From Persephonella sp. (GTDB taxonomy: Bacteria; Aquificota; Aquificia; Aquificales; Hydrogenothermaceae), in assembly GCA_027028005.1 (NCBI GenBank), contig JALVKE010000318.1, positions 1-48,321 of the forward strand: DNA of 48,321 nt, in the 5' to 3' direction. Both the position numbers and the translations under genes were made by a program. How positions within the stretch are numbered: the stretch's first letter is position 1; every line of letters starts with the position of its first letter. A model generated the notes under the pieces. That model was given only the letters and a program-made list of their open reading frames with translations, ran no database searches and was not told where the DNA came from. Below are positions 25,142 through 41,159 of this stretch, piece by piece.

Positions 25142-26605
25142 ATGAGTTTAAAAATATATAACACGTTAACTGGAAAAAAAGAAGAATTTGTACCTATAAA
25201 TCCTCCAGATGTAAAGATTTATACATGCGGAGTTACTGTATATGATGTGAACCACGTGGGACATGGAAGGAGTTTAATTGTTTTTGATGTTATAAGAAGA
25301 TATCTAAGACATCTAGGATACAATGTAAAGTTTGTTAGAAACTTTACAGATGTTGACGATAAGATTATAAACAGGGCAAAAAGAGAGTGTCTTCCTTTTA
25401 CGGTAATAGCTGATAGATATATTAAAGAGTACTTTCAGGATGCAGAAAACTTTAGAATAGAACCAGCTGATGTGGAACCAAGGGTTACCACCCATATACC
25501 AGATATCATTGATTTTATTCAGAAACTTATAGAAAAAGGTTATGCATATGAAGTTGAGGGAGATGTTTATTTCTCTGTTAGAAAGTTTAAAGACTATGGA
25601 AAACTTTCTAAAAGAAGTGTAGATGAGCTTATAGCAGGAGCTAGAGTTGAACCTGGAGAGAAGAAAAGAGATCCTCTAGACTTTGCTCTGTGGAAAGCTT
25701 CTAAAGCAGGAGAGCCTGCCTGGGATAGTCCTTGGGGAAAGGGAAGACCGGGATGGCATACAGAATGCTGTGCAATGATCTTTAAACATCTTGGAGAGAC
25801 AATAGATATACATGGTGGAGGTCTAGATTTAATATTTCCTCATCATGAGAATGAGTTGGCTCAGGCAGAGGCTCTATCAGAAAAACCTTTTGCAAGGTAC
25901 TGGGTTCATAATGGTCTTGTTACAGTTAGAGGGCAAAAGATGTCTAAATCTTTAGGAAACTACATAACATTAAAAGAGATATATGCAAGGTATGAGCCTG
26001 ATATTTTAAGACTCTTGGTTCTTTCTGTTCATTATAGAAGTCCACTAGACTTCTCATGGGAAAAGATGGATGAAACAAAGAAAGCCTATGAGAGACTAAA
26101 AACAGCCATAGAAGATTATGATATCGTTTCAAAACTTCCTGAAAATCCAGAGTTTGAAGAACATCTATACGATGCTATTGCAAAAGCGGAACAAAACTTC
26201 TACGCAGCAATGTCTGATGATTTTAACACTCCTGAAGCATTAGCTGCTCTTTTTGGGCTAGTAAGAGAGATGAACATACTTAAAGATAAAGCTGTAAAGA
26301 AAGGTGGGATATCAAAAAAGGCATTGGAATCTTATAAAGAAGCTGCAGAAACAATTCATAACATAGGTAAAGATATGTTTGGACTTTTTGATAGCTTGCA
26401 GCCTTGCATTGAGGTTGAAGAGATAAAAGCAGAGAAAAAAGAAGAAAAAATAGATGAAGAGCTTATAGAAACATTACTTGAAGTTAGAAATATAGCAAGA
26501 AAACAAAAACAGTTTGAAATAGCAGATTTAATAAGGGACAAGTTAGCACAGCAAGGCATTGTTATAGAAGATACTCCCGTTGGAACAAAATGGAAGAAAA
26601 AGTAA
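25142..26605 (+). CDS. cysS: cysteinyl-tRNA synthetase
   Basis: [71 protein letters not shown]. Confidence 0.98.
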
Positions 26606-37832: not shown

Positions 37833-38690
37833 ATGCTTGATATACAATTTTTAAATGAAAGAGCAAAAAAGCTTAGGTCAGCTTTAAAAAAAGTAAAACA
37901 GATTATAGATCTAGGAAAGGAAACATTTGTTTCTACACCTATGTATCCTGATAGAGTTCAGTACTATATGGTTATGGCTTATGATGAGCTTGAGAAGATA
38001 GCCTGTCATATATACTCAGAAGCTACAGGAGAGAAGATATCTGAAAACTGTCTTGAAAAATTAGCTCAAACAGACATCTTCTCAGGAAAGATAAACAGAG
38101 CTATTCAGGATCTTATTAAGTTTAAAAAAGACCTATTTGAAAGTAACTTTAAATACTCTCCAGAACAGATGTATTTCACTGTTAAAAATATTTTAGATAG
38201 CCTGTATGAGCCTTTTATTAAAGAGCTAAGCAAAGTAGTAAAAGAACTTAAAGAGAAACAACCTAAACTTACTATTCCTGTAAATCTAAAGAAAGTAAAT
38301 CAACAGGCAAAAGCAATAAAATCAGAGCTTAAAAAGATAGAAACCCTTTTAACGTATCCTAAGGAGGAGTTTGTAAAAAGTGAGTATGCAATAGATAGAG
38401 GAAGATACTTTGCAGTAGTAACGGTAGATAGTGCTCTTTGGATATGCAGGCATATAGCAAGACAGCTAAAGCTAAAACCATCAAAAAACTGTTTTGAAAA
38501 TCTATACAAAGCAGGGATTTTAAAGAAAGAAACAGCAGAAAAACTTGAGAAGATAGCATCGTACAGAGATATTTTTGCAAACCCTGAAAAAGAAATAGAC
38601 CCAGAAGAGCTTTATAGAATATTAAAAGAAGATTTTCCTGTTTTCCTTGAATTTATAAAAGAAATATCAAAAGCTATATTTGGAAAGTGA
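37833..38690 (+). CDS. tandem HepT/DUF86-like (HEPN) repeat protein, motif-degenerate
   Basis: Two similar halves (LKKVKQIIDLGKETFVSTPMYPDRVQYYMVMAYDELEKIACHI / LKKIETLLTYPKEEFVKSEYAIDRGRYFAVVTVDSALWICRHI) followed by HepT-like CFENLYKAGILKKETAEKLEKIASYRDIFANPEKEIDPEELYRIL. Confidence 0.72.
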   Translation: MLDIQFLNERAKKLRSALKKVKQIIDLGKETFVSTPMYPDRVQYYMVMAYDELEKIACHIYSEATGEKISENCLEKLAQTDIFSGKINRAIQDLIKFKKDLFESNFKYSPEQMYFTVKNILDSLYEPFIKELSKVVKELKEKQPKLTIPVNLKKVNQQAKAIKSELKKIETLLTYPKEEFVKSEYAIDRGRYFAVVTVDSALWICRHIARQLKLKPSKNCFENLYKAGILKKETAEKLEKIASYRDIFANPEKEIDPEELYRILKEDFPVFLEFIKEISKAIFGK

Positions 38691-38738: not shown

Positions 38739-38854
38739 GGTATCAATCCAAACTTGGAGACCTACCGCTGGACTAGTGGGACGTTTGCTTTGCAAACTGG
38801 TGACACGAAGTGAAGCAAGTAACGCCTGTGGAGTGAGGGATATTCCACGATGAT
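38739..38854. other. GC-rich, hairpin-rich intergenic block (candidate structured ncRNA or IS200/IS605 right-end relic)
   Basis: Stems CCGCT(38765-38769)/AGTGG(38775-38779), GTTTGC(38783-38788)-TTT-GCAAAC(38792-38797), GTGGA(38828-38832)/TCCAC(38844-38848); base composition clearly richer in G+C than flanks. Confidence 0.5.
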
Positions 38855-39026: not shown

Positions 39027-41159
39027 CTAGTTACCAAATTTCAGATCAAATCTGTCAAGATTCATAACCTTATCCCATGCTTTTACAAAGTCAGATACAA
39101 ACTTTTCTTCATCTGATGCGTAAACCTCAGCAACAGCACGAAGCTCGTTGTGATGTCCTATGATCAGGTCAACTCTTGTGGCTTTCCATTTTAGCTTCCC
39201 AGATTTTCTATCATAACCTTCAAATAGATAATGGTTTTCATCTGTAGGTTTCCATTCTGTATCCATATCAAGAAGATTAACGAAGAAATCATTTGTTAAA
39301 GTGCCAGCTCTATCAGTTAACACACCTGTGCCGTCGAATCCGTAAACAGCCCCTAAAACTCTTAAACCTCCAATTAAAACCACCATCTCTGGCACAGTTA
39401 AAGTAAGAAGATTAGCTTTATCAACTAAAAGTTCTTCGGCCTTGGTTTTTGAAGGATCTTTCATATAGTTTATAAATCCATCTGCAAATGGCTCTATGAC
39501 TTTGTAAAACCTTTCTTCTATATCTTCTTGTCTTGCATCTACTCTTCCTGGAGTAAAAGGAACAGATACTTTAAACCTAGCTTCTTCAGCAGCTTTTTCT
39601 ATTGCAGCACAGCCTCCAAGGACTATAAGATCGGCTATGGACACCTTTTTCTTATCAGTATCAAACTCATTTTTTATCTTTTCATAAACGGATAACACCT
39701 TTGATAGTCTTTCTGGATGGTTTACTTCCCAGTTTTTAAAAGGAGATAAACGGATCCTTCCACCGTTTGCTCCACCTCTTCTGTCTGAATCTCTGTATGT
39801 GGATGCAGAAGACCATGCTGTATATACAAGTTCAGGAATGTCTAATCCTGAAGATAGAATTTTTTCCTTTAGAACCTTTATATCATTTTCATCTATCAGT
39901 TCGTAATCCCTTTCAGGCAATGGGTCTTGCCATATATACGTTTCTTCTGGAACCTCTGGGCCAAAATAACAGCTTTTTGGGCCCATGTCCCTATGGGTTA
40001 GCTTATACCATGCAAGTGCAAAAGCTTTCTCAAACTCCTCTGGATTTTCAAGGAAGTATCTTGAGACTTTTTCATATTTAGGGTCAAATCTTAGAGCAAG
40101 GTCAGTTGTCAACATCATAGGTTTGTGCTTTTTATAAGGATCATGGGCGTCTGGAAGCATCTCCGGAGCATCTTTTGCAACCCACTGATATTTTCCTGCA
40201 GGGCTTTTTGTAAGCTCCCATTCATACTCAAATAAAAATTTCAGAAAATAAATGCCAAACCTTGTTGGGGTTAATGACCATACAAGCTCAAATCCAGAGG
40301 TAAATGTATCAGGCCCTTTTCCCGTTTTATAGTTGTACTTCCATCCAAGTCCCTGCTGCTGAACAGGTGCAGCATCTGGAGGAGGGCCTAAATACTTTTC
40401 AGGGCCTGCACCGTGACATTTTCCAAATGCATGTCCACCTGCAATGAGTGCCACAGTCTCTTCATCATTCATTCCCATTCTGCCAAAAGTCTCTCTTATC
40501 TGTTTTGCTGATGCAACAGGATCTGGTTTTCCTTCTGGCCCTTCAGGATTTACATAAATAAGACCCATCTCTGTAGCAGCGTATGGTTTTTCAAGTTTTC
40601 CATCTTTAAACCTTTCTTTTCCTGAAAGCATTTCATGTTCAGGGCCCCAGTCTACAGATTCATCAGGTTCCCAGATATCTTCCCTTCCTCCTGCAAAACC
40701 AACAGTTTTAACTCCCATAGACTCAAGGGCAACATTTCCTGCAAGAATTATTAAATCTGCCCATGATAGTTGTTTACCGTATTTTTTCTTTACAGGCCAC
40801 AATAGTCTTAACGCTTTATCTAGATTTATATTATCTGGCCAGTCAATTCTCAGAGGAAATCTTATGGAACCTGACCTTGCTCCACCTCTACCGTCAAAAA
40901 TCCTGTAACTTCCTGCACTGTGCCACGCAAGTCTTATAAAAAGAGGCCCATAATGTCCAAAGTCTGCAGGCCACCAGTCCTGAGATGTGGTCATTAGTTT
41001 TTCCAGATCTTTCTTCAGCTGAAAGTAATCAATCTGTTTAAACTCTTTTACATAGTTAAAATCCTCTCCGTAGGGGTTTGATGTAGGACAGCTTTGTCTT
41101 AAAGGTTTTAGATTCAACCTTTCTGGAAACCAGTCTGTGATCCATCTCTTTCTGCTCAT
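39027..41159 (-). CDS. katG: catalase-peroxidase
   Basis: [69 protein letters not shown]; start set at [10 protein letters not shown] (GGAGG upstream) rather than the ORF-track 41249. Confidence 0.96.

Follow-up and report, generated by a model that had tools for sequence, protein, structure and literature searches.

A probable TnpB right-end remnant in Persephonella and the putatively mobile double-hairpin element that it carries

The window analysed here, a 48,321-nt contig of Persephonella sp. (GenBank assembly GCA_027028005.1, contig JALVKE010000318.1), has an overall G+C content of 0.329, against 0.491 in a block at positions 38739-38854; in 100-nt tiles the block reaches up to 0.51 and its surroundings 0.25-0.36. 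This agrees with an earlier note on this DNA, which had put the block at about half G+C in a window of about one third (49% versus 33% as measured). The same note took tRNA-Ser to be the only other segment to stand out in this way, which does not hold: four islands of comparable strength are present, namely the block, tRNA-Ser, 25651-25784 and 40309-40466 (inside katG), the latter two also peaking at 0.51, and 25651-25784 is thus a further GC-rich island equal in strength to the block. The gene lying 5′ of the block (37833-38690) codes for a protein of 285 aa in which two stretches are HepT-like; it is conserved in 35 of the 41 genomes of the family, with differing neighbours.

The three local stems that had been proposed for the block can all be located in its sequence: stem 1, CCGCT/AGTGG (38765-38769/38775-38779); stem 2, GTTTGC/GCAAAC (38783-38788/38792-38797); and stem 3, GTGGA/TCCAC (38828-38832/38844-38848). 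The minimum free energy of the block is -26.1 kcal/mol, whereas shuffled sequences average -23.9 (z -0.67, with 47 of 200 shuffles equally good), so that thermodynamics alone would not single it out; an Infernal/Rfam check, which had been suggested as a way to identify it, returned no match for the window, nor for the block at relaxed thresholds. It is through comparison with relatives, rather than through folding energy, that the stems rise above chance.

Positions 38760-38844 share 85% identity over 85 nt with the sequence that ends an intact tnpB ORF (L005, in G006:C36) of a related Hydrogenothermaceae genome, and 80% with a locus in the host's own genome (G000:C1); a shorter stretch is 86% identical to a tnpB ORF in G008:C38 (L006). 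The intact relative is a TnpB by its Pfam matches (OrfB_IS605, 7e-15; Cas12f1-like_TNB, 3e-13), and intact copies continue through ..GAAGCAGGAAGCC, a hairpin and GGAGGATGTCAC (or a close variant), which is the end of the element. Further downstream, positions 38817-38853 are 84-87% identical to the right ends of elements from another Aquificota family (f5), and comparison with the right ends of L020-L023, L041, L043 and L045 delimits a conserved core on the + strand (38818..38853), comprising AGTAACGCCTGTGGAG and the third hairpin, GTGGA...TCCAC (38828-38848). Two further partial copies of the block lie in the host's own genome: L003, where a broken tnpB (TTKICSRCGNKKEKITLSDRTYKCEKCGLVIDRDLNSAINILK...) continues directly into block sequence, and L002, a solo right end with the terminus ...GAGATGATGTCAC. 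The homology search that had been called for, in the host genome and in Aquificota, thus found copies in both; across 136 genomes of the phylum the homologues were exclusively tnpB right ends or fragments of them.

On this evidence we regard the block, with considerable confidence, as a dead fragment of an IS605-family TnpB element that carries a copy of a 34-39-nt double-hairpin element. The alternative offered by the earlier note, an IS605 right end or omegaRNA remnant, is accordingly upheld, since related copies are found where tnpB ends and extend up to the end of the element; so is the observation that no TnpB or TnpA ORF lies nearby. By homology, 38755..38854 on the + strand is what remains of the tnpB 3′ end together with the right end, which forms part of the omegaRNA/reRNA scaffold; the remnant has an approximate 5′ boundary (homology begins at 38760) and a 3′ truncation at about 38853. 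In the source element, the last tnpB codons would overlap the right end, the region that an intact element would transcribe into the guide RNA scaffold of TnpB. In ISDra2, the reRNA spans the 3′ end of tnpB and the right end, and takes its last ~16 nt from flanking DNA (PMC8612924). The family of the window copy resembles this type in deriving the scaffold from the same region and the guide after it from the DNA alongside (PMC8612924), in its structured right end, and in the OrfB_IS605 and TNB domains of its relatives, whereas the window copy itself differs in being truncated and interrupted by stops, and in having neither tnpB, terminal hairpin nor guide junction. Though broken, the remnant adds a new member to a known element type; by itself it is ordinary.

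Covariation, the other check that had been suggested, gave a positive result for stem 1 and, by way of the family described below, for stem 2. Stem 1, CCGCT-GGACT-AGTGG with its loop (38765..38779, + strand), belongs to the right end/omegaRNA, and we call it stem A. All five of its pairs are kept in 12 of 12 sequences (100% of cells paired), four of the five with changes on both sides (C-G to G-C, A-U to C-G and similar), and its covariation score of 0.994 compares with 0.27 for shuffled alignments (0/500) and ≤0.26 when slid; it is a true conserved scaffold helix.

Stem 2 has a different origin. Aligned with the site-1 copies of L005 and L006, it falls within a 37-nt copy of the double-hairpin element at insertion site S1 (38781..38817, + strand), which consists of hairpin 1, GTTTGC TTT GCAAAC (38783-38797), and hairpin 2, GT GA CAC GAA GTG AA GC (38800-38816), both on the + strand. 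The insert at S1 adds a net 36 nt relative to relatives that are without it, the empty allele being present in L008, L020, L021, L023 and L027; the GTTTGC/GCAAAC hairpin is thus a separate insert carried by some relatives only, a point that the earlier note had missed. The window copy is diverged, reaching 13.6 bits with model R1 in a local search and falling below detection at E≤0.05 in a 239-kb search, and its membership of the element family rests on the position that it shares with the L005 and L006 copies.

Copies of this element measure 34-39 nt and form two adjacent hairpins. The arms of hairpin 1 vary (TTTGC/GCAAA, CAAATC/GATTTG, CAAATT/AATTTG, CAATTC/GAATTG and others), whilst hairpin 2 mostly takes the form GC-GA-stem-loop-stem-GA-GC, with an inner stem of CC/GG, CT/AG, AC/GT, CTC/GAG or CAC/GTG; its outer pairs can also be GT/AC or GGC/GCC. 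In a second form of hairpin 2, an A is bulged and the arms are AUGCC/GGCAU or CUGCC/GGCAG. Covariation scores are 0.290 versus 0.130 and 0.229 versus 0.077 (0/500 shuffles; slid controls ≤0.05), obtained from alignments fitted to the structure and with models seeded from copies first spotted in tnpB. The element conserves structure over letters and is under pressure to keep its fold.

Two covariance models made from these copies, run on 136 Aquificota genomes, returned about 64 places at E≤0.001, all of them in Hydrogenothermaceae (41 genomes), and none at that threshold in the 95 genomes of other Aquificota families, which served as an internal control. Among 84,980 prokaryote genomes, an exact pattern matched three contigs, which come from two MAGs, one of Hydrogenothermaceae and one of Aquificota, and three patterns found nothing in viral contigs; the canonical form looks lineage-restricted, with the proviso that an exact pattern would miss diverged forms elsewhere. 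Distinct insertion positions number at least 14 and fall in tnpB genes of several subfamilies, in tnpA, in an IS481-type integrase and in the DNA around CRISPR arrays; the tnpB copies sit near the N-terminus, mid-gene, at the C-terminus or in the right end. IS left ends hold further copies, and of the CRISPR arrays with a copy next to them, one has a match to Rfam CRISPR-DR43. This array is in L099; next to a CRISPR array, or within similar AATATATTTTCTATT-type flanks, the element occurs at three different positions (L099, G022:C2, 1071-1536; L100 and L113 in G008; L102 in G001; L106 in G020). In an IS481-type transposase, assigned by Pfam for L144 and by similar flanks for L152 and L131, the element sits where the integrase core ends, and its net insertion, 35 nt for L144, disrupts the reading frame.

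Empty alleles are available at 14 sites. Of the 13 coding sites, 12 have a net gain of 33 or 36 nt, both multiples of three; the exception is the integrase, with 35 nt, a value shared by one CRISPR-flank site. By element length, with location classes assigned by hand, 24 of 26 copies in ORFs of at least 100 aa measure 34 or 37 nt, against 35 or 36 nt for all 11 copies in CRISPR flanks or left ends; this frame statistic is limited in that the sizes do not represent independent events, length being partly a property of the subtype and some copies having a common origin. In-gene copies use all three reading frames. The base at the insertion point of the empty allele, read by eye, is A at 13 of 13 sites, and at most compared sites the net insertion equals the length of the element minus one; since the element both starts and ends with A, and the empty site has an A, one A must be shared or duplicated. 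No target duplication longer than 1 nt was seen at the compared sites.

Synthesising these observations, the most likely explanation is a non-autonomous repeat that inserts as a single-stranded hairpin molecule at A, and is then filtered by selection. The inserted molecule may be DNA, or RNA that is copied into DNA, so that the element may move as either an RNA or a single-stranded DNA hairpin; in this model, copies in ORFs would persist if they are in frame and at tolerant positions of TnpB or TnpA. We consider it reasonably probable that the element is a lineage-specific mobile element that spreads by insertion at A residues and survives preferentially in IS200/IS605 genes, where it lengthens RNA-guided nucleases and transposases by 11-12 in-frame residues and gives guide RNAs extra stems.

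As to what might move it, a Y1 transposase of IS200/IS605 elements acting in trans on a REP-type repeat, in the manner of RAYT, would be compatible with this explanation, and we entertain it as a tentative possibility. The hairpins, the defined insertion base and the absence of multi-base target duplications all fit HUH chemistry, and copies occur in 12 of 14 genomes with Y1_Tnp versus 7 of 27 without (Fisher p 0.0006), an association that is confounded because the copies sit inside IS200/IS605 elements. Against it, the hairpins are, by eye, unlike the terminal hairpins of the IS, and seven carriers, including the host (G000) and the many-copy G030, have no Y1_Tnp match at E≤0.001. The element shares with REP/REPIN sequences that it is a short, non-autonomous hairpin repeat with a possible Y1 (HUH) mobiliser. 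REPs are mainly extragenic, whereas many copies of the element are inside reading frames; no RAYT was identified, the Y1_Tnp model, which is not RAYT-specific, being the one that drew a blank in the host and the six other carriers.

That two related modules sit near each other in one right end, as in L005 (where a related insert follows 20 nt beyond the site-1 copy, with a third copy mid-tnpB) and in L002, would suit a different reading, in which the central hairpin is not mobile but an expandable part of the omegaRNA itself that has been duplicated inside right ends. This is largely contradicted by copies away from right ends, near the N-terminus of tnpB, mid-gene, in tnpA, in the IS481-type integrase and beside a CRISPR array, as well as by a copy that is antisense to its gene (L127), and we hold it to be improbable. 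The L127 copy (G002:C134, 1501-1534, minus strand), though antisense to tnpB, is in frame (VDESYT-CSHSFAQFKELS-GVDSLKN).

Returning to the remnant, homology to its relatives ends at CGATGA (38853), where they continue into AGCAGGAAGCC..GTCAC, and the window copy is without the rest of tnpB, the terminal hairpin, the cut site and the element/guide junction; with its terminal hairpin and cleavage end (..GGAGGATGTCAC) missing, it is a remnant and not a functional end. In the old tnpB frame, 38762-38854 reads LPLD*WDVCFANW*HEVKQVTPVE*GIFHDD, with stops, one of them a TAG (38774..38776, + strand) where relatives read LPLDWWDV or LPTDCGDV. The + frame quoted in the earlier note does exist, although it is not the frame of tnpB: the supposed ‘NACG-type’ tail, GTAACGCCTGTGGAG, reads VTPVE in the true frame, and the resemblance arises because conserved DNA was read in another one. 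With these losses and the stops, the remnant is probably dead, the missing parts presumably having been lost by deletion following insertion. No Y1 transposase was found in the host genome at E≤0.001, so that the fragment would be expected to be immobile and non-functional, and we infer that it is without present function. An empty allele of the whole remnant was not found when the upstream HepT-like gene was traced in 41 genomes: its orthologues were found, and they provide no empty site because katG and the malic-enzyme gene do not lie beside them.

This state bears on the two remaining readings of the block. The headline claim of the earlier note, an independent small ncRNA gene forming a GC-rich island of a thermophile, draws on the elevated G+C and on three stems, one of them strongly covarying, but we reject it as very improbable, given the lack of an Rfam match and of stability beyond chance (z -0.67), homologues that across 136 Aquificota genomes were solely tnpB right ends or fragments of them, and a block that is truncated relative to these and carries stops in the old frame. 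Least probable of all is an exapted solo right end that still makes guide RNA in trans for a TnpB elsewhere in the genome: other TnpB-domain genes are present, stem A is intact and a complete-looking solo right end exists at C1 (L002), but the window copy is without the 3′ terminal hairpin and the element/guide junction seen in relatives, past which the ISDra2 guide starts (PMC8612924), and would equate to the 5′ part of an omegaRNA scaffold with no guide-joining end. The L002 right end (G000:C1, 1490-1720), which has no tnpB, ends in GATGTCAC and holds two copies of the double-hairpin element, is itself a possible source of a trans-acting omegaRNA.

In open-licence papers we found nothing on such an element in Aquificota, and the main text of the Aquificales ncRNA paper (Lechner et al. 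2014) contains no word starting with ‘transpos’; the literature does describe related repeats, namely RPE, PARCEL, Coxiella MITEs, REPIN and mitochondrial hairpin elements. Rickettsia palindromic elements (RPE; Ogata 2000) are ~150 bp long and lie in frame in varied metabolic genes (PMC10969869). Like them, our element is a small palindromic repeat of one bacterial lineage that sits within protein genes and preserves their frame (12 of 13 coding sites); it differs in its two hairpins, its use of all three frames, its preference for transposon genes and a duplication of at most one A, and the RPE label was not given on grounds of size (34-39 nt versus ~150 bp), the likeness being one of kind. 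Mitochondrial double-hairpin elements, or RHE, are known from Allomyces (Paquin 2000) and sponges (PMC2800124); for those of Allomyces no flanking duplications are reported, and occasional in-gene copies do not shift the frame (PMC2800124). The element shares with these that it is a very short, probably mobile hairpin repeat with two adjacent hairpins and no multi-base target duplication, whereas its host is bacterial, it targets mainly IS DNA and its hairpin 2 usually has a tandem GA mismatch; this likeness, too, is of kind only.

The element is, as far as we could find, previously undescribed, and we file it under neither type, viewing it as a bacterial counterpart to both; if the mobile reading holds, it is among the smallest dispersed inserts known to us. 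Hydrogenothermaceae offer a lineage in which its movement can be compared between carriers and non-carriers. Its further interest lies in which positions of RNA-guided nucleases and their scaffolds accept extra sequence: with natural in-frame insertions in TnpB, TnpA and omegaRNA, and empty alleles in close relatives, tolerated positions become directly mappable. The L005 TnpB, for instance, has clean inserts of 11, 12 and 12 residues, and the rest of the protein, including the motifs IDFGIKHQ and IDRDLNSA, aligns lengthwise with 11 relatives lacking them; an AlphaFold model of this three-insert TnpB had a mean pLDDT of 51 and was set aside. We note separately an in-frame copy in a TnpA (L160, G002:C311, 1464-1497, minus strand), which retains a whole-length Y1_Tnp match with no stops.
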